From: Chitinophagaceae bacterium
Lineage (GTDB): Bacteria; Bacteroidota; Bacteroidia; Chitinophagales; Chitinophagaceae
Assembly (NCBI GenBank): GCA_019638595.1
Contig: JAHBTJ010000008.1
Location: 186,001 to 250,000, forward strand
Direction of reading: 5' to 3'
DNA length: 64,000 nt
Part shown: positions 5,792 through 44,582 of the stretch, piece after piece
How the letters are laid out: each line of letters begins with the position of its first letter
Numbering within the stretch: position 1 is the stretch's first letter
The notes under the pieces: model-generated
Seen by the model: the letters and a program-made list of their open reading frames with translations, nothing else
The model's database searches: none
Told to the model about the DNA's origin: nothing
Translations under genes and position numbers: made by a program

Positions 5792-5796
5792 AATGT

Positions 5797-5824
5797 GTGA
5801 AATAGTGAGTGGTGAATGGTGAAT
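5797..5824. repeat. heptanucleotide array, GGTGAAT type
   Basis: Four 7-base units in exact phase, ending in two identical GGTGAAT copies; the first two are diverged (GTGAAAT, AGTGAGT). On the transcribed strand of the operon the unit reads ATTCACC. It lies in the 66-base gap between the adaptor and pump genes, five bases from the pump start codon. Confidence 0.7.
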
Positions 5825-5857
5825 ACGATTCACTCATAGCATCACACGCGATGTTTG

Positions 5858-7000
5858 TTATTTTTTAGAAGCGCCTGCGGCGGCCGGTTGCGGCTGACCG
5901 GTAGTTATTACAGCGCCTTCCCTTAAATTTTGTACTCCTTCCACTACAATGGTTTCTTTTGCCTGCAAACCTTCCTTCACAATTATACCCGGTCCAATCT
6001 GCCGCGCCGGTTGTATCTTTCTTTGTGTAACCTTACTGCTATCGCCCACCACATACACAAAAAACTCTCCTAACTGCTCGGTAACGGCTTTGTACGGAAT
6101 AATCACCGATTGAGTGCCGGCGGTATTCAATACCCTTACCGTGGTGCTCATCCCCGCCTTTAATAAATGCTTATCGTTGGGAAAATTCAGCCTTGCTTTA
6201 ATAGTACCAGTCTGCGGGTCAACGGCCCGGTCAATTACGCTTAATGTACCTGCATAGGGATATACATCTTTTCCAAACGCTATGCTGAAAGTAGAATCCT
6301 TAGAATCTTTTTTTGCCTGTTGCAACTGCGAGAATCTGTAAATTTCTTTTTGATCTACCGTAAAATCTACCGCTATGGGGTTATCGGTTGATACAATATT
6401 GAGGATGGTTTGACCTGCCACAACAGAAGTACCCATCCTTACCTGTGAAATACCTATTGTACCATCGAAGGGCGCTATTATAGAAGCAAATTTTACATTG
6501 GAACGTACCGCGTTCACATTTGCCCTTGCCGCTTCTACCTGCTTTTTAGCCGCTTCCAGCGTGGCATCCGCATAATCTACCTGCTGCTTTGCAATAGCAT
6601 CCTGCCTGTCCAGCTCATGATAGCGGTCGGCGTCTTTCTGAGCCTTCAGCAAATTGGTTTCCTGCACCTGCAGGTTAGCGATGGCTTGTTGCTCGTTGGC
6701 GCTGTATACCTGTTGGTCTATAGCATACAACCGTTGCCCTTTACGCACCTTATCGCCATCTTTAAAATAAATACCGGTAATATAACCTGTAACCTGCGGC
6801 CTCAGCTCTACCTGGTTAATAGCAGTCAGCGTACCCGGATATTCATCATAATAAACAGCATCCGTCAACGACACTTCCTGAACGGTTACGGATATCGCCG
6901 GCGGAGGCCCCTGCTGCTGTTGCTGCTGCTTCGCGCCACAGGCGGCCAGCATCAATACCGATCCGTACAGCAAAAGCGTTTTGATTGTTGTATGTAGCAT
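5858..7000 (-). CDS. RND periplasmic adaptor subunit (membrane fusion protein)
   Basis: A 380-residue lipoprotein: hydrophobic leader, lipobox 'LAAC' with Cys21, then a short Gln-rich linker (KQQQQQQGPPP) coded by a CAG/CAA tract. Next come a barrel-sandwich lipoyl-like half, an alpha-helical hairpin (~90-160), the second lipoyl half with 'IIAPFDGTIGISQVRMG', and the beta-barrel and membrane-proximal domains. This is the HlyD/AcrA plan. It bridges the inner-membrane pump to the outer-membrane channel. It is the middle gene of the efflux operon, 143 bases after the TolC-like gene and 66 bases before the pump start. The poly-Gln linker is length-variable by nature and I give it no function. Confidence 0.93.
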   Translation of the reverse strand: MLHTTIKTLLLYGSVLMLAACGAKQQQQQQGPPPAISVTVQEVSLTDAVYYDEYPGTLTAINQVELRPQVTGYITGIYFKDGDKVRKGQRLYAIDQQVYSANEQQAIANLQVQETNLLKAQKDADRYHELDRQDAIAKQQVDYADATLEAAKKQVEAARANVNAVRSNVKFASIIAPFDGTIGISQVRMGTSVVAGQTILNIVSTDNPIAVDFTVDQKEIYRFSQLQQAKKDSKDSTFSIAFGKDVYPYAGTLSVIDRAVDPQTGTIKARLNFPNDKHLLKAGMSTTVRVLNTAGTQSVIIPYKAVTEQLGEFFVYVVGDSSKVTQRKIQPARQIGPGIIVKEGLQAKETIVVEGVQNLREGAVITTGQPQPAAAGASKK

Positions 7001-7026: not shown

Positions 7027-7133
7027 GCTGTGAGCTATCGGCTATGGGCAATGAGCCTTGAGCTATCAGCCATTTATGGTTTTTTGTTTGTAGCTGATAA
7101 CCACAAACTATACACTCAAAATCACAAACCTGT
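7027..7133. repeat. heptanucleotide array, GCTATCA type, with AT-rich tail
   Basis: Seven consecutive 7-base units fill 7027-7075 in strict phase; all begin GC and most resemble GCTATCA or GCTATGG. An AT-rich tail follows with GTTTGT and ACAAAC inverted, then AAACCTGTAACC, which matches the other heptad type of this window. It occupies the 143-base intercistronic gap between the TolC-like and adaptor genes. Confidence 0.75.
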
Positions 7134-7143
7134 AACCCTGCTC

Positions 7144-8463
7144 TTACCACTTTATTTCCCCCAGCGAACGCTGCACATCTATTTTGCTGGAAAGCAGGGC
7201 ATACAACGCATCGTAATAATTGATCTGGGCAGTGCGCAAATCTGTTTCAGATGTTATTACTTCAAGATAGGTTTTTACACCCGACCGGTACTGCAATTGT
7301 ATCACATCATACACCTCCTTAGCCAGTACCAGGTTTTCTTTAAGCGCCAGGAACTCTGCCAGGTTGCTTTTGTATGCCGCCAGCGACGCATTGTATTCTG
7401 CATTCACCGCGTTTTTCAGGTTAGCAATATCGAGATTTGTTCTGCGCAATTGCCACCGGGCCTGATCAATAAGGTATTTACGTTTCCCCCCCTGGAAAAT
7501 AGGCAATGCCAGTGTTACGCCGGCATACGATGCAGGATACGACTGGTTGTATAATTTGCTGAATTGGTTATTCAGGTAATTGAGGTTATAAGCGCCGTTG
7601 GCGGATAGCGAGGGCAGGAAGCTCCATTTATTATAACTCACGTTCGCCTCCAGCAGCCGCATTTGTGTTTGCAACAACTGGTATTCTATCCTGCGGCTAT
7701 AATCCGCCACCTGCAAGGTATCCAGTATAATTTCGTTCTCCATAGAGGAGGTATCATATACAATATCGAGCTCCGCGTTTACAGGATAATTCATTTTGGC
7801 TTTCAGGCTTTCTATCCGCGCCTTCAGCAATACCTCAAAGCTTTTTTTAGACGCTTTGGTATTATTTAAAGCAATCGCCGCCCTTTTATAGTCCGTTTTA
7901 TCGGTAATGCCAGCCTGGTATTGGTTGTAGGCATCTTTATAGCTGCGCTCAAGACGTAGTATGTTTTCTTCCGATACGCGTATTTGCTGCTCGGTGGCCA
8001 ATACATCATAAAATGCTTTCGACACTTCTGCCGCTACATCTATTTTACTGCTTTCCGTGCTTTGCTTTGCCTGTTTGCGGATATCGGTACGTGTACGGCT
8101 GGCCAACAGCACATCCCTGTTGAATATGGTTTGGCTGGCAGAAAATAAAAGCCCGGAAGTATTATCCACACCCAGCTTTACCGGGTTCCCTCCTATTATA
8201 TTGGTTTGCACCTGAAAGTTATGCTGGAAAGTATAATTGAAATTCACCTGCGGAAACCACTCCGCCAGTTTACTCTTAATGGTTGTTTCCGCTATTTCTT
8301 CGTCAATTTGCGATTGCTGCACAATAGGTTGCCTGTTGATGGCATATTGTATACAGTTTTGTAAAGTAGCAGATTGCAAAACAGAATCATTCACCTGCTG
8401 AGCATTTACATAAGAAGTTGCTATGAGTAGTATCACTCCAAAAAACAATAAATGCTTTTTCAT
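7144..8463 (-). CDS. TolC-family outer-membrane efflux channel
   Basis: A 439-residue outer-membrane factor with a cleavable signal peptide (MKKHLLFFGVILLIATSYVNAQ). Two repeated long-helix plus beta-strand halves give the TolC/OprM fold. The second half shows 'VTLALPIFQGGKRKYLIDQA', typical of the family, and the C-terminus keeps 'YYDALYALLSSKIDVQRSLG'. It is the first gene of the efflux operon with adaptor and pump downstream, and should be the trimeric exit duct. A candidate promoter and palindromic operator lie at 8580-8618. No regulator gene is adjacent; the neighbour on the other side is a divergent hexosaminidase. Confidence 0.93.
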   Translation of the reverse strand: MKKHLLFFGVILLIATSYVNAQQVNDSVLQSATLQNCIQYAINRQPIVQQSQIDEEIAETTIKSKLAEWFPQVNFNYTFQHNFQVQTNIIGGNPVKLGVDNTSGLLFSASQTIFNRDVLLASRTRTDIRKQAKQSTESSKIDVAAEVSKAFYDVLATEQQIRVSEENILRLERSYKDAYNQYQAGITDKTDYKRAAIALNNTKASKKSFEVLLKARIESLKAKMNYPVNAELDIVYDTSSMENEIILDTLQVADYSRRIEYQLLQTQMRLLEANVSYNKWSFLPSLSANGAYNLNYLNNQFSKLYNQSYPASYAGVTLALPIFQGGKRKYLIDQARWQLRRTNLDIANLKNAVNAEYNASLAAYKSNLAEFLALKENLVLAKEVYDVIQLQYRSGVKTYLEVITSETDLRTAQINYYDALYALLSSKIDVQRSLGEIKW

Positions 8464-8714: not shown

Positions 8715-10352
8715 ATGCGTAAGCTTCTTCCCAGCTTTTTTATCCTGGCATCGTTGTCTGCCTATAGCCAGCACTCTTTGCCCATCATTCCCGCGCCCGT
8801 AAAAGCCCAGGTACGAACCGGCTACTTTACCATTAGCCCGCAAACGGTTATAGTAGACCGTAACGGAGGGGAAAAAGCAACGGTTGAATTTTTTAACGCC
8901 TATCTCGAAAAATATTACGGGTTTACATTACCGGTACAAAAAAAGGCCGATAAAAATTATATCAGCTTTTCTACCAAAACTTTTGTCAAAGCTCCCGGTA
9001 ACCGCGAACGTTATACGCTTACTGTAACTCCGGCCAACATACATATTACGGGCGATGGTCATGCCGGCACTTTTTACGGGCTACAAACATTACTCCAGTT
9101 GCTTCCTGTTCAAAAAACAACTTCTCCCGATATTCCGGCTGTTGCCATTGATGATTATCCAAGGTTTGCCTACCGCGGCGCCATGCTGGATGTGAGCAGG
9201 CATTTTTTTGACGCGGCATATGTAAAAAAATTCATTGACCTGCTGGCGCTGCATAAGATCAATACCTTTCACTGGCATCTTACCGACGACCAGGGCTGGC
9301 GCATAGAAATAAAAAAATATCCCGGGCTAACGGAGGTGGGTAGCTGCAGGAATGGCAGCATTACCGGAAGATATCCCGGCACCGGTAACGATGGGCAGGA
9401 GCATTGCGGCTATTATACGCAGGAACAGGTAAAGGAAATAGTGCAATATGCAAGCGACCGCTTTATCACTGTTATTCCCGAAATTGAATTACCGGGGCAT
9501 TCCTCAGCCGCTATAGCTGCCTATCCGCAACTGAGCTGCTTTCCGGATGAACCGACACGCCCGGCCCCGGGAACAGCCTGGCATGGCGATACCACCCGTA
9601 AAAATGTACAGCAGGCCTGGGGAGTGTTTGAAGATGTATACTGCCCCAGCGAATACACTTTTAATTTTTTACAGGATGTGCTGGATGAAGTGATCACTTT
9701 GTTCCCATCGAAATATATACATATCGGCGGAGATGAATGTCCTAAAGATGCCTGGAAGAGATCGGCTTTTTGTCAAAAGCTCATCAAAGAAAACAACCTG
9801 AAAGATGAGCATGAGTTGCAGAGCTATTTTATACAGCGCATTGAAAAGTACCTGAACGGCAAAGGCAGGGCCATTATAGGTTGGGATGAGATACTGGAAG
9901 GGGGGCTGGCAGCTAACGCAACGGTAATGAGCTGGCGTGGAGAAAAGGGCGGCATTGAAGCCGCCAAGCAGAAGCACGATGTAATAATGGCTCCTAATTC
10001 CTATGTTTACCTCGACTATTCGCAACGCAAAAACGACGACTCCGTTACCATAGGCGGTTATCTTCCCCTGCAGAAAGTATATAGCTTTAATCCTATACCT
10101 AAAGAGCTGAGCGCTGATGAACAGCATTACATATTGGGAGCGCAGGCCAATCTTTGGTCGGAGTATATACTCTATCCCTCCAAGGTTGAATACATGATCT
10201 TTCCACGGCTGACAGCTTTGAGCGAAGTATTCTGGAGCCCGTTGAAGCATAAGAACTGGGAAAGCTTCAAAAAACGTATCCCGGTTCAGTTTAAAAGATA
10301 TGAGCTATGGGGTGTGCATTATTATCCGGGATTGAATGAACCAATGAAGTAG
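8715..10352 (+). CDS. beta-N-acetylhexosaminidase, GH20
   Basis: A 545-residue secreted enzyme with a signal peptide (cleavage near 'LSAYSQHS'). An N-terminal GH20b-type alpha/beta domain spans ~20-145 and the GH20 TIM barrel ~150-500. The barrel shows 'NTFHWHLTDDQGWRIE' and the catalytic Asp-Glu pair in 'HIGGDECPKDAW' (near residue 340), where Asp orients the substrate acetamido group and Glu is the general acid. It removes terminal N-acetylglucosamine or N-acetylgalactosamine from chito-oligosaccharides, glycans or peptidoglycan fragments. It stands alone, divergent from the efflux operon and convergent with the PQQ dehydrogenase gene. The stop is followed by a heptad repeat array rather than a plain terminator. 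Confidence 0.95.
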   Translation: MRKLLPSFFILASLSAYSQHSLPIIPAPVKAQVRTGYFTISPQTVIVDRNGGEKATVEFFNAYLEKYYGFTLPVQKKADKNYISFSTKTFVKAPGNRERYTLTVTPANIHITGDGHAGTFYGLQTLLQLLPVQKTTSPDIPAVAIDDYPRFAYRGAMLDVSRHFFDAAYVKKFIDLLALHKINTFHWHLTDDQGWRIEIKKYPGLTEVGSCRNGSITGRYPGTGNDGQEHCGYYTQEQVKEIVQYASDRFITVIPEIELPGHSSAAIAAYPQLSCFPDEPTRPAPGTAWHGDTTRKNVQQAWGVFEDVYCPSEYTFNFLQDVLDEVITLFPSKYIHIGGDECPKDAWKRSAFCQKLIKENNLKDEHELQSYFIQRIEKYLNGKGRAIIGWDEILEGGLAANATVMSWRGEKGGIEAAKQKHDVIMAPNSYVYLDYSQRKNDDSVTIGGYLPLQKVYSFNPIPKELSADEQHYILGAQANLWSEYILYPSKVEYMIFPRLTALSEVFWSPLKHKNWESFKKRIPVQFKRYELWGVHYYPGLNEPMK

Positions 10353-10422
10353 CAAGTGGCTATGAGCTATCAGCCGTCAGTCTATATGAGCCACAAACCT
10401 GAAACTTGTAACCTGTAACAGG
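10352..10422. repeat. composite heptanucleotide array (GCTATCA type then AACCTGT type)
   Basis: 10352-10379 holds four phased units (GCAAGTG, GCTATGA and two more). After a 15-base spacer, 10395-10422 holds four phased units of a second type (AAACCTG, AAACTTG and two more). The second part can fold AACCTG against CAGGTT. It lies between the convergent hexosaminidase and PQQ dehydrogenase genes, and its first unit begins three bases after the hexosaminidase stop triplet starts. Confidence 0.7.
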
Positions 10423-10478
10423 TTCCGGCTATCCGGGTATCAGCTGTCACGATGAGTATTTTTGCTTCGGGCAACGGT

Positions 10479-31585: not shown

Positions 31586-32392
31586 TCAGCTCATCGTATC
31601 CAGCAATTCACCCAAAACCTTTAACACGCCGTCATCATCGTTAGACGCTGTAACAAAGCGCGCGGTTTCTTTAATTTCAGGATGCGCGTTCTCCATTGCG
31701 TAGCTGAAATATCCCTCCTTCATCATTTCAAGATCATTCAGGTAATCGCCAAAAACCATTGTTTCATTATAGTTGATATTAAACTCCTGCTGCAACACCT
31801 TTATAGCCCTTCCCTTATTAGCCAACCGGTGCGAAAGGTCGAGCCACAGCGTGCCCGACACTTTTACCTGCAATTCGTTTTCGAGATGTTTAAACCAGGT
31901 ATAGCTGTTTTGTTCCGATCCCCTGAAGTCGCATATTGCAATTTTCAGGAACTGGTCATGTTCTACTTCCAGCAAATCGCTTACAACCTTTTGCCTGTCG
32001 TAATACATATTTACATGTTCCATAAAACGGGCATCGGTCTTTTCAATATAGGCTTGCTGCTTACCGCATAAAATTATATAGGTGTCAGGAATATTACGGG
32101 CTATATGAACCAGGCTGTGAACAACTTCTTTATCTAAAGCCTGCACCAGCAGATCCTTATTTTTATATACTATATAGCTTCCGTTCTCCGCAATAAATAT
32201 CACATCGTTTTTAACGGCACTCAATTCATTTTGCAGGTTATAGAACTGCCGCCCGCTGGCCGCCGCGAACAAAACACGCTTTGCTTTGAGCTTATCAAAT
32301 ATGTTAAAGAAAACGGGATTCAATTCTTTTTTTGAATTCAGCAGGGTACCGTCCATATCGGTCGCTATCAACTTAACATCTGCCAGGTTCAT
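31586..32392 (-). CDS. Cof-type HAD-IIB phosphatase
   Basis: A 268-residue cytoplasmic haloacid-dehalogenase-like hydrolase. Motif I is 'ATDMDGTLLNSKKEL' with both Asp residues, motif II 'FAAASGRQF', the motif III Lys lies in 'NKGRAIKVLQQ', and motif IV is 'FGDYLNDLEMM'. A type IIB cap sits between motifs II and III. It hydrolyses sugar phosphates, flavin mononucleotide, pyridoxal phosphate or similar small phosphates; the exact substrate cannot be read. It is monocistronic and convergent with the oxidoreductase. Upstream lies a ~610-base gap with a repeat array. Confidence 0.92.
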   Translation of the reverse strand: MNLADVKLIATDMDGTLLNSKKELNPVFFNIFDKLKAKRVLFAAASGRQFYNLQNELSAVKNDVIFIAENGSYIVYKNKDLLVQALDKEVVHSLVHIARNIPDTYIILCGKQQAYIEKTDARFMEHVNMYYDRQKVVSDLLEVEHDQFLKIAICDFRGSEQNSYTWFKHLENELQVKVSGTLWLDLSHRLANKGRAIKVLQQEFNINYNETMVFGDYLNDLEMMKEGYFSYAMENAHPEIKETARFVTASNDDDGVLKVLGELLDTMS

Positions 32393-32432
32393 GTATACTC
32401 AAATTTCCGGCGAAAGTAATTCTTTTGAACAA

Positions 32433-32570
32433 GCTATGAGCGGTCAGCAGTCAGCTATGGGCTATCAGCGATCAGCCGTCAGCAATTTATAGTTTTTTGT
32501 TTATAGTTAAGAAACCACAAATAGTGTGCGTGCCCAAATCCGAAACTTCAAACCATAAACTATAAACAAA
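32433..32570. repeat. heptanucleotide array, GCTATCA type, with flanking inverted repeat
   Basis: Eight 7-base units in strict phase cover 32433-32488. All begin GC; examples are GCTATGA and GCGATCA. An AT-rich segment follows in which TTTGTTTATAGTT (32496-32508) is a perfect inverted copy of AACTATAAACAAA (32558-32570). It lies upstream of both flanking divergent genes (HAD phosphatase and cytochrome lipoprotein). The rest of the gap, 32571-33006, shows no gene. Confidence 0.75.
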
Positions 32571-33006: not shown

Positions 33007-35709
33007 ATGTATCGAAACTTCCCTTCTGTAAAGTTGGTTTTAGCCCTCTTTATGCTTGGCTGTATTGCCATTTCGTGTAACAATGAAGAAAAGCAGGATG
33101 AAAAATCTGCCGGGCCTGTTGATCCAAAAGTTGAAAAGCTGAAGCTGCCCTCCGGCTTTAAAGCAGACAGGTTGTACGGACCTTCGGAAAACAAAGAAGG
33201 CTCATGGGTGTCGATGGCTTTTGACGATAAGGGCCGGCTGATCGCGTCGGACCAGTATGGTGCACTTTACAGGCTTGCACTTCCCTCCATTGGCGACACC
33301 AGCACAAAAACAAGTATTGAAAAGCTGAATATTACTACCGACCAGGTGGTAGCTGCAGATACCAGCGGTAAAAAAGTAAGCATCGGTTATGCGCACGGCC
33401 TGTTGTATGCTTTCAATAGCCTGTATGTAATTGTAAGCCATACCAGCGATGACCGTATGAATAAAAGCAGCGGCTTATACCGCCTGCAGGATACAGACGG
33501 AGATGACCAGTTTGATAAAGTAACCCTGCTGAAATCACTAAAGGGCGAAGGAGAGCATGGCCCGCACAGCGTAGTGCTGGCTCCCGATGGAAAATCAATA
33601 TATGTAGTGGCAGGTAACCATACCGATATACCGGAAATGAACGCTTATCGCCTGCCTTCCAACTGGCAGCAAGACAATCTTTTTCCTTTATTTACCGACC
33701 CTAACGGTCATGCGGTTGACCGCAGGGCTCCCGGCGGGTGGATTGCCCATATTGACTCAACCGGCAGTAATTGGGAATTGGTAAGCGCAGGTTACCGTAA
33801 CGAATTTGATATAGCTTTTAATGACCTGGGCGATATGTTTACCTATGATTCAGATATGGAATGGGACTTCGGTACACCCTGGTATCGCCCTACCCGTATT
33901 TGCCATGCCACAAGCGGCAGCGAATTTGGCTGGCGTACGGGTAACAGCAAATGGTCGCCCACCTATCCCGATAACCTGCCCGCTATAGCGAACGTAGGCC
34001 AGGGATCTCCTACCAACGTTGTGTATGGAGGAAAAGCTAAGTTCCCTGAAAAATACCGTAAGGCAATATTCGCTTTCGACTGGAGCTTTGGCATTATTTA
34101 CGCCATACTGATAGAACCCGACGGAGCTTCTTATAAAGCAACCGGCGAAGAATTTGTATCAGGTTCTCCTTTGCCCTTAACGGATGGGGTGATAGGTCCC
34201 GATGGTGCTATGTATTTCCTTACAGGCGGGCGCAGGCTCGAGTCTGATCTGTATCGTGTGTATTATACCGGGAAGCTGGATGAAAAAGACCAGAAAACCA
34301 CAGAAGAAACACCTGAAAGAAAAATACGTATTCAGCTAGAGGCTTATCATGGTGCGCCTAAAGCGGGCGCTGTAGATTTTGCATGGCCTTATCTTAAGCA
34401 CAGCGACAGGTTTATACGTTATGCAGCCAGGATAGCGGTTGAACACCAACCCGTGGCAGAATGGAAAGATAAAGTACTGGCAGAAAAAGACCCGGTTACT
34501 TTAATGCAGTCAGGATTGTCTCTTGCAAGACAGGGAGACGCTTCACTGAAAGGACAATTGTTGCATACACTGGCAGGTATTGATTTCAGCAAGCTTTCCG
34601 AATCGCAGCAAATAGACCTTGCACGTACGTTTGAGGTAGTTATTGCCAGGATGGGCGTGCCCGACGCCGCAGGTAAAGCGGAAGTGATCAATTACCTCAA
34701 TGCACAGTTCCCGGCAAAAAACAATGAAATCAACAGGATATTAGCCAAAACACTGTTATATCTTGATGCGCCTGAAGCGGTCAATAAAACCATGGCGCTT
34801 TTGGCAAACGCTAAAGACGACAATTCATCGGGCCAGAAAACACTGATGGAATCGTCCGATCTTATTATGCGTAACCCTCAGTACGGTATGGACATCGCAA
34901 GCATGCTTTCCAGTGTTCCGCCAGCCCAGCAAACATACTATGCGGTTGCGCTCAGTAAAGCAAAAAATGGCTGGACTCCTGAGCTGCGTGAACAATACTT
35001 CAAATGGTTTTACAAAGCTTTCAGCTATAAAGGAGGTCACAGCTTCAGGGGCTTTATCAACAACGCAAGAAAAGCGGCGTTGGAAAATGTACCAAAAGCC
35101 GAGTTCGCGCTGTACAATACCATGTCCGGCGATTCTATTGTAAACCGCCCCAGCAACGCCTGGGCAGACAATGCGCCGCAGCCTAAAGGCCCCGGCAGGA
35201 ACTGGAAAATGGAAGAAGCTAGTTCTATTGTTATAGACAGCCTTACACTTACTCCCAGGAACTTTGAGAACGGTAAAGCCATGTTCGCGGCATCTTTATG
35301 CATTTCCTGCCACAATATGAAGGGCGAAGGCGGCACTTCCGGCCCCGACCTTACACAACTGGGTACGCGCTTTTCTGCCAAAGACATACTGGAGGCAATT
35401 ATTGATCCAAGCAAAACCATTTCCGACCAATATGGCGCAACGGTTTTTTACCTGAAGGACGGAGGATCGGTTGTAGGCAGGATCGTAAGCCAGGATGACC
35501 AGAAATACTCTATCTCCCAAAACCCGTTCGCTCCGCAAATATTAAGAGACGTTCCCAAGAAAGATGTAACCAGGACAAGAGTCTCGGAAATTTCGCCTAT
35601 GTTGCCGGGCATGGTAAACAGGTTAAATCCCGAAGAGCTGAGAGATCTTACCGCTTACCTGATATCCGGCGGTAATAAGGATCATGAAATATACAAAGGC
35701 AAAAAGTAA
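33007..35709 (+). CDS. PVC-type heme-binding c-type cytochrome lipoprotein
   Basis: A 900-residue lipoprotein (Cys24 in 'CIAISCNN'). Residues ~45-420 form an L-sorbosone/glucose-dehydrogenase-like propeller ('GEHGPHSVVLAPDGK', 'NEFDIAFNDLGDMFTYDSDMEWD' in pieces). A helical HEAT-like region covers ~440-720. The C-terminal cytochrome c part carries 'CISCH' (~765) and the typical 'GPDLTQLGTRF', 'ILEAIIDPSKTI' and 'LKDGGSVVGRIV' block. This is the architecture of PVC-type heme-binding proteins, abundant in planctomycetes and some Bacteroidota. It probably oxidises a sugar or polyol outside the inner membrane and hands electrons to the respiratory chain; substrate unknown. It is monocistronic with a strong terminator. 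Confidence 0.88.
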   Translation: MYRNFPSVKLVLALFMLGCIAISCNNEEKQDEKSAGPVDPKVEKLKLPSGFKADRLYGPSENKEGSWVSMAFDDKGRLIASDQYGALYRLALPSIGDTSTKTSIEKLNITTDQVVAADTSGKKVSIGYAHGLLYAFNSLYVIVSHTSDDRMNKSSGLYRLQDTDGDDQFDKVTLLKSLKGEGEHGPHSVVLAPDGKSIYVVAGNHTDIPEMNAYRLPSNWQQDNLFPLFTDPNGHAVDRRAPGGWIAHIDSTGSNWELVSAGYRNEFDIAFNDLGDMFTYDSDMEWDFGTPWYRPTRICHATSGSEFGWRTGNSKWSPTYPDNLPAIANVGQGSPTNVVYGGKAKFPEKYRKAIFAFDWSFGIIYAILIEPDGASYKATGEEFVSGSPLPLTDGVIGPDGAMYFLTGGRRLESDLYRVYYTGKLDEKDQKTTEETPERKIRIQLEAYHGAPKAGAVDFAWPYLKHSDRFIRYAARIAVEHQPVAEWKDKVLAEKDPVTLMQSGLSLARQGDASLKGQLLHTLAGIDFSKLSESQQIDLARTFEVVIARMGVPDAAGKAEVINYLNAQFPAKNNEINRILAKTLLYLDAPEAVNKTMALLANAKDDNSSGQKTLMESSDLIMRNPQYGMDIASMLSSVPPAQQTYYAVALSKAKNGWTPELREQYFKWFYKAFSYKGGHSFRGFINNARKAALENVPKAEFALYNTMSGDSIVNRPSNAWADNAPQPKGPGRNWKMEEASSIVIDSLTLTPRNFENGKAMFAASLCISCHNMKGEGGTSGPDLTQLGTRFSAKDILEAIIDPSKTISDQYGATVFYLKDGGSVVGRIVSQDDQKYSISQNPFAPQILRDVPKKDVTRTRVSEISPMLPGMVNRLNPEELRDLTAYLISGGNKDHEIYKGKK

Positions 35710-44540: not shown

Positions 44541-44582
44541 CTGTACACCTTGTACCCTGCAACCTGAACCTTGTAACCTGAG
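44541..44582. repeat. heptanucleotide array, AACCTGT type
   Basis: Six phased 7-base units, for example CTTGTAC, CCTGCAA, CTTGTAA. The same unit type appears at 10395-10422. A small GC palindrome (CCTGCG/CGCAGG-like) precedes it at 44519-44532. It lies between the divergent trpS and aldehyde dehydrogenase genes. Confidence 0.7.

Follow-up and report, generated by a model that had tools for sequence, protein, structure and literature searches.

Polar, degenerate heptad arrays in the intergenic DNA of a Bacteroidota genome: candidate modules of dispersed multi-class elements

Arrays of degenerate units with a strict period of seven bases are abundant in the intergenic DNA of the genome studied here, where they show polarity and are shared with G004, the nearest relative among the genomes that we compared. 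The pattern is real and strong, and our best reading is that it represents a richer relative of the cyanobacterial and Xanthomonas heptamer repeats, which are themselves unexplained. Specifically, we judge it evenly balanced whether the arrays belong as modules to dispersed intergenic heptad elements, polar and non-coding, that spread and then undergo turnover in 7-base steps under constraint. A first-pass annotation had pointed out single arrays in the window, by which we mean the whole stretch of 64,000 nucleotides analyzed; it missed that they often stand in a longer, polar, multi-class arrangement, and that the inverted repeat it had noted belongs to the classes of this arrangement.

Reading whole intergenic regions by eye, we distinguished GC-start arrays of GCNNTSR units (class A), NNNGTTT heptads (TTTATAGTTTATGGTTTTTTGTTT; class B), AAACNNN heptads (class b), AACCTGN heptads (class C), and YYAAATY heptads (class D), the last following a joint, CAACAGYCATC. 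The heptads of the window and the genes beside the two longest class A arrays are given below.

5801..5824, plus strand: intergenic heptads of another class (AATAGTGAGTGGTGAATGGTGAAT), nearly unchanged in G004
5858-7000, minus strand: HlyD-family gene, one flank of the 7027 array (Pfam)
7027..7075, plus strand: class A array of seven heptads, all seven different (read directly; orthologous array in G004)
7076..7096, plus strand: class B heptads ATGGTTT TTTGTTT GTAGCTG, in phase with the 7027 A array
7102..7140, plus strand: class b/C stretch (CACAAACTATACACTCAAAATCACAAACCTGTAACCCTG) (read directly)
7144-8463, minus strand: outer membrane efflux protein gene, other flank of the 7027 array (Pfam)
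10352..10379, plus strand: short class A array with three good units (read directly; Pfam of the adjoining gene)
10389..10423, plus strand: class C heptads (AAACCTG AAACTTG TAACCTG TAACAGG) (read directly)
31586-32392, minus strand: HAD-type hydrolase gene, one flank of the 32433 array (Pfam)
32433..32488, plus strand: class A array of eight GCNNTSR heptads (read directly; grammar statistics; orthologous array in G004)
32489..32509, plus strand: class B heptads ATAGTTT TTTGTTT ATAGTTA, in the same 7-base phase as the 32433 A array
32496..32508, plus strand: left arm of a perfect 13-base inverted repeat, within class B (read directly)
32543..32570, plus strand: class b heptads AAACTTC AAACCAT AAACTAT AAACAAA, in kind the reverse complement of class B
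33007-35709, plus strand: cytochrome-c-domain gene, other flank of the 32433 array (Pfam)
44547..44580, plus strand: intergenic class C-like heptads (ACCTTGTACCCTGCAACCTGAACCTTGTAACCTG) (lag-7 signal and reading of the sequence)

The eight GC-start units that the first-pass annotation had reported at 32433-32488 are present and all differ (GCTATGA, GCGGTCA, GCAGTCA, GCTATGG, GCTATCA, GCGATCA, GCCGTCA, and GCAATTT); the spellings it quoted exist, although GCGATCA, which it had placed second, is really sixth. The last unit, GCAATTT, forms the handover to class B, and lag-7 segments were computed both across the A array with its class B heptads (32432-32512) and over the class b heptads (32533-32569). 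Direct reading also bore out the perfect 13-base inverted repeat described at 32496-32508 and 32558-32570, the arms of which proved to be the heptads themselves (TTTGTTT ATAGTT and its complement), with the right arm sitting inside the class b heptads. The seven units stated for 7027-7075 are there, and all of them differ, while of the four units claimed at 10352-10379 the 7-base steps stand but only three are good units, since the first, GCAAGTG, breaks the GCNNTSR grammar and begins on the final base of the stop codon that closes the 8715-10352 gene (a glycosyl hydrolase 20 by Pfam). A class A scan of the window gave no A array at 44547..44580.

Our own genome (G000; 7.06 Mb in 52 contigs) was searched with three class A units plus GC (GCNNTSR x3 + GC), and gave 539 overlapping matches (302 forward and 237 reverse), while the same three-unit pattern read backwards gave 0 + 0. 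In 400 kb of contig C1, the 31 listed pattern matches made up 18 arrays of at least three units plus GC, compared to one in six shuffles together, and an estimate scaled from this contig is about 300 arrays of at least three units in the genome. The window itself held two such arrays and each of 20 dinucleotide shuffles held none, so that neither the shuffled sequences nor the genome-wide count, by which the loci are not unique, spoke against the first-pass annotation. Self-matching at a lag of 7 gave 71 segments in 324 intergenic regions (82.8 kb from stretches of our own genome), with 57, 32, and 11 segments at lags 14, 21, and 28, and 0-7 at the lags between 4 and 27 that are not multiples of 7; enrichment in intergenic DNA is confined to lag 7 and its multiples. 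Coding DNA (408 kb) had nine segments at lag 7, inside the range of 2-23 seen at other lags from 4 to 15, and 100 kb of E. coli showed no lag-7 signal. Consistent with the earlier statement that all copies are non-coding, just 4 of 74 A arrays (in about 1.0 Mb) lay inside predicted genes, as called with our own simple gene finder, in a set that required at least two units plus GC and a gene on both sides and left out contig C6. At the beginning of that contig (G000:C6:1-20000, locus L174), tandem genes that look Rhs-like by eye are accompanied by six A arrays of nearly the same sequence (GCTGTCR GCTATCA GCTATGA GCYATCG ...). An identical terminator-like hairpin comes after each array, and the pieces of the repeated gene to which the arrays are joined are cut in different ways.

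By eye, the candidate elements are roughly 100-250 bases long. Their modules tend to follow one another as A (GCNNTSR)n - B (NNNGTTT)n - spacer - b/C (AAACNNN, AACCTGN)n - D (YYAAATY)n, and many loci have some of the modules only. Class C preceded D in 220 anchor pairings and D preceded C in 23, counts to which one array contributes several anchors and which include loci fetched by similarity. With such loci likewise included, b-C, C-D, C-joint, and joint-D pairings kept the 7-base phase in 74-96% of cases; the phase was partly kept from A to B (40%) and was not fixed from A to C. Among the 74 A arrays, a set not chosen by similarity, a strict B core followed 22 and preceded four, and there was none within 130 bases of the remaining 48; given this and the loose A-to-C phase, the elements are not of a single rigid type.

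The arrangement is polar with respect to the flanking genes. In our own genome, A was closer to the 5′-side gene in 51 of 58 regions (medians 27.5 vs 155 bases), D was closer to the 3′-side gene in all 28, and C was closer to the 5′-side gene in 6 of 26, and the side rules for A and D hold whatever the directions of the genes. The same sides recurred in G004, where A was nearer the 5′-side gene in 11 of 13 regions and D in 2 of 12; the corresponding counts for stretches of G002 and G005-G010 were 23 of 27 for A and 1 of 7 for D. Class A is indifferent to gene direction, showing no strand preference relative to tandem genes (17 arrays on their strand and 27 on the other, p 0.17), and D leans weakly to the tandem-gene strand (14 vs 5, p 0.064). 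Counted by regions, gene orientation made no difference, with lag-7 segments in 51 of 384 tandem gaps, in 12 of 83 convergent ones, and in 12 of 90 divergent ones, though heptads covered 9.4% of the bases in convergent gaps, compared to 5.4 and 4.7% in the others. Stop triplets numbered 369 in A arrays and 238 (sd 10.6) in dinucleotide shuffles, an excess that can come from unit composition alone, and the stop-codon idea was dropped.

Since B is in kind the reverse complement of b, and A/G exchanges separate A (GAGCTAT) from b (AAACTAT), classes A, B, and b look like relatives of one another. An RNA reading can also be put forward, in which B forms a hairpin either with A (including G-U pairs) or with b, the two hairpins excluding each other and acting on the transcript. 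Folds of the plus strands of three elements did beat shuffles (z -2.18, -2.87, and -2.50), whereas the minus strands gave z of -0.92, -1.41, and -2.00. Moreover, A arrays have no set orientation with respect to transcription, related classes present in both orientations (GAGCTAT / AAACTAT / ATAGTTT) pair anyway, and the single Rfam match at gathering scores in the whole window was a tRNA elsewhere in it; we thus consider the RNA reading very improbable.

The unit grammar was tested on 255 seven-base windows that lie between two good units and are not themselves required to fit, some of which are chance coding matches. Positions 1, 2, and 5 were G, C, and T in 88-92% of these windows, and position 6 was C in 126, G in 105, A in 10, and T in 14. 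Such C/G exchange with few transitions at position 6 is unlike the outcome expected of plain neutral drift.

Plain replication slippage, in which arrays grow on site by duplication of 7-base units and then drift by point mutation, is the first alternative on which the units themselves bear. With arrays of identical unit lists counted once, the similarity of class A neighbors was that of within-array shuffles (0.507 vs 0.506), in agreement with the first-pass view that the period is kept while units differ, and not by simple slippage. Identical neighbors made up 3.7% of A in our own genome (5.0 shuffled), 3.6% of b/C (4.0), and 8.0% of D (20.6), and in G004 the corresponding values were 2.9 (4.3), 3.6 (3.9), and 23.5% (32.2). 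The fraction was therefore below the shuffle mean in all six class-by-genome tests, though significantly so only for D in our own genome, where 1 of 1000 shuffles was as low (for A, 188 of 1000, not significant). This scarcity is an argument against units having recently been duplicated on site, at least in A and D, and a single genome-wide grammar with fixed polarity is not what independent local growth would give. On the other hand, neighbors in the mixed b/C class were more alike than shuffled (0.478 vs 0.439; 0 of 1000), for which local duplication could be the source; in C alone, neighbors were less alike than shuffled (0.469 vs 0.516), and the order of sub-classes is thus the likely cause. 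A 7-base polymerase contact length, which would suit slippage, has already been proposed in print, as quoted in PMC4692102. Weighing these points with those from the genome comparisons below, we see slippage as unlikely, if still worth serious consideration.

Unit strings were shared between loci beyond shuffled expectation in b/C (44 vs 7.9; 0 of 1000) and D (20 vs 10.8; 11 of 1000), part of which a conserved order of sub-classes may explain. For A, arrays at different loci shared three 3-unit strings compared to 1.8 when shuffled (263 of 1000, not significant), in a test that left out C6 and loci fetched by similarity and had less power, with 55 instead of 77 arrays; an earlier excess depended on the similarity-fetched loci and is not relied on.

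We next turn to G004, in which two proteins matched at 85% and 82%, with a median of 91% over 71 reciprocal pairs. From 49 orthologous intergenic pairs, the 38 that were long enough and under 1200 bases were compared; heptads were in both genomes in five, in one genome in one, and in neither in 32, so that they are shared at five of six informative sites. The 7027 site has the same number of units in G004, five of the seven being different, and the 32433 site has six units instead of eight. Over 13 paired units at these two loci, degenerate positions differed in 18 of 52 cases and fixed positions in 1 of 39 (Fisher p 1.5e-4). The 7027 site alone gave 12 of 28 compared to 0 of 21 (p 4e-4), and the 32433 site, beside the HAD-type gene and with two of its eight G000 units unpaired, gave 6 of 24 compared to 1 of 18 (p 0.21, not significant). 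At 10353, the alignment has 87 identical columns and, next to them, two insertions of 7 bases and a deletion of 3 bases. Taken together, the two orthologous arrays thus change at degenerate positions and keep the fixed ones, and a third site shows 7-base insertions. The insertions at 10353 and the six versus eight units at 32433 are in keeping with slippage, whereas the fixed positions kept at 7027 count against it.

The same comparison bears on a selective explanation, namely that the arrays are binding sites in which every 7-base step is recognized by a protein or RNA and purifying selection keeps grammar and spacing, three steps being close to two helical turns, for example in nucleoid organization or at gene boundaries. 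In accord with it are the contrast between fixed and degenerate positions at orthologous units, the use of C or G but few A or T at position 6, and the presence of heptads in both species at five of six informative sites. However, the region numbers reveal no preferred type of gene boundary, A has no strand preference, and the near absence of class A from four relatives (G001, G011, G007, and G010) would make the function dispensable. We regard selected binding arrays as doubtful.

Other features of the G004 comparison stand apart from these tests. Segments 10389-10478 and 5792-5857 were nearly unchanged between the two genomes (the 87 identical columns in the former and 99% of paired columns in the latter), and the proteins beside 10389-10478 were only 84% and 89% identical; this likeness may reflect unusual conservation or recent exchange. 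In addition, a G-rich A array with eight counted units at G000:C45:318527-318667 corresponds in G004 to a 30-base gap whose heptads are of another class (GGACAAT-like).

Across the genus, the class A pattern had 0 to 347 matches in the 11 other members and at least one match in 10 of these, with near absence in G001, G011, G007, and G010 (0, 1, 3, and 7 matches). At the gene pair of the 7027 array, G003, G005, G007, and G008 have a short gap without such an array. Forward and reverse A arrays face each other within a few bases at G008:C3:344004-344061 and G008:C6:199527-199591, where long hairpins are possible, and one facing case was listed in our own genome (C4:192624-192684). Outside the genus, 8 of 46 genomes matched, of which three had 15-38 matches and five had 1-3; the backward-pattern control was not clean there (for example, G054 21+27, G030 9+11, G035 8+0), and small class A counts in distant genomes consequently mean little. 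The frequent reversed-pattern matches in those three genomes (48, 20, and 8) are perhaps other heptad classes. A phylum sample of 819 kb, composed of the best 80 loci matching a 483-residue protein of the window and nearly all from Bacteroidota, showed no overall rise at lag 7 (25 segments vs 7-28 at other lags from 4 to 13). Individual Bacteroidota loci carried different heptad classes (CTTAATT, TCTTGTC, ATAGACT, TTTTTAC; L113:454-1230, L065:4891-4933, L079:4248-4301), several of them side by side in L113.

With respect to how the arrays multiply, a 146-base core from B to D had 57 matching pieces in our own genome, itself included, from a search in which 40 of 309 first-look candidates were scored. 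Two copies were 89% alike over 138 bases and 86% alike over 126, with flanks that look unrelated by eye, which is evidence for copying of whole elements. No clean empty site or target duplication was present among the 38 orthologous pairs, and insertion as a unit is thus not proven. Over the 12 genus genomes, array counts did not follow those of Y1_Tnp or RVT_1 (Spearman -0.17 and 0.24), and we rejected the Y1 transposase and RVT_1 as drivers. Array counts did track genome size (Spearman 0.88, 12 genus genomes), so that passive accumulation fits too, and slippage is likewise in keeping with this relationship. A further proposal, that a telomerase-like reverse transcriptase adds templated heptads at broken ends, would suit a strict 7-base step with free letters. 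Nevertheless, RVT_1, the reverse transcriptase family that this test covered, gave no match in G002, G008, G006, and G009 despite 71, 168, 72, and 52 pattern matches, and each of the many classes would need its own template; we find templated addition scarcely credible.

Under the reading that we prefer, polar heptad elements would reach new gene boundaries as whole units, as the 86-89% alike copies suggest. After arrival, they would gain and lose seven bases at a time and change fast within the tolerated letters. The grammar, in turn, would be kept either by selection, with each 7-base step being read by a protein or RNA, or through renewed copying from sister elements. With 539 matches in one genome and 0 to 347 in 11 relatives of the same genus, along with several classes and a marked polarity, growth, spread, and constraint are measurable.

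Several known repeats resemble these arrays in part. REP and REPIN elements, with their RAYT transposases, are short, dispersed, intergenic, and non-coding; here the count of Y1_Tnp does not go with that of the arrays (the Spearman of -0.17 over 12 genomes). MITEs have terminal inverted repeats and target-site duplications; here the B/b complementarity is internal, and the 38 orthologous pairs included no clean empty site. The STRR heptamers of heterocystous cyanobacteria are intergenic 7-base arrays, and the kinship in kind that the first-pass annotation had proposed is borne out by a 300-kb control from a Trichormus variabilis plasmid, with 16 lag-7 segments compared to 1-8 at lags 4-13. Lag-7 density is higher here: at the same threshold, 664 kb that had not been selected for arrays gave 55 intergenic segments. 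Like STRR, the present units are exactly seven bases, head to tail, and occupy many intergenic loci per genome. Unlike the many Trichormus plasmid arrays listed as near-perfect, class A is strongly degenerate (3.7% identical neighbors), making it a degenerate variant and not a classic STRR.

The first-pass annotation knew of no description for this phylum, a view that does not hold: MacGregor 2015 (PMC4679880) describes TAACTGA heptamer repeats not only in Beggiatoaceae and Cyanobacteria but also in five Bacteroidetes, some of which have further heptamers next to TAACTGA. Between two Cyanothece strains, most of the indels come in steps of 7 nt. These repeats are also intergenic heptamers; they have one fixed unit and, in the Beggiatoaceae genome, lie mostly just upstream of start codons, whereas the units here are others and A has neither a start-codon position nor a strand preference. 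It was the only paper on heptamers in Bacteroidetes found in a literature search that had most subscription journals outside its coverage, and the same search, with that coverage, found no ordered, multi-class, polar heptamer arrangement. Degenerate 7-base units in two classes (TDNGATT / NNTGAGT), with motif insertions of 14 nt, also occur in the P6b region of the Nostoc tRNA-Leu intron, according to the excerpt of PMC4476775, though inside one structured RNA and not dispersed.

The closest likeness is to the Xanthomonas GGGAATC / (GGGANTN)n and Nostoc GGGGA(C/T)T repeats, which the available portion of PMC4692102 describes as degenerate intergenic heptamers with fixed and free positions, numbering 186 and 183 in two species and 89-93% intergenic. 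The same paper also quotes work on heptamer over-representation across many bacterial genomes. The Xanthomonas and Nostoc repeats differ in their G-tracts, which can form G-quadruplexes, and one class per species is described in the available portion, with no ordered multi-class arrangement; here a G-tract per unit is lacking, with 64 of 357 A units ending in GG and so making GGG with the next GC. Heptamer repeats are known from unrelated bacteria without a settled mechanism, in so far as the excerpts of PMC4692102 and PMC4679880 show. It is a speculative, rather improbable extension that a single kind of polar, dispersed element written in heptads lies behind the arrays of Bacteroidota, Cyanobacteria, Xanthomonas, and Beggiatoaceae, all of which would be its visible heads; this would be a class unrecognized as a whole, with its own 7-base copying process that would keep the step and a loose grammar but not the sequence. 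The position relative to genes is shared most directly: the PMC4692102 excerpt puts the 5′-side ORF at an average distance of 28 nt and the ORF on the other side at 160 nt, whatever the ORF direction, compared to our medians of 27.5 and 155 for A, whose 5′-side position is also independent of gene direction (51 of 58 regions) and recurs in the other genomes. This matching geometry suggests that the Xanthomonas arrays may head longer polar elements too.
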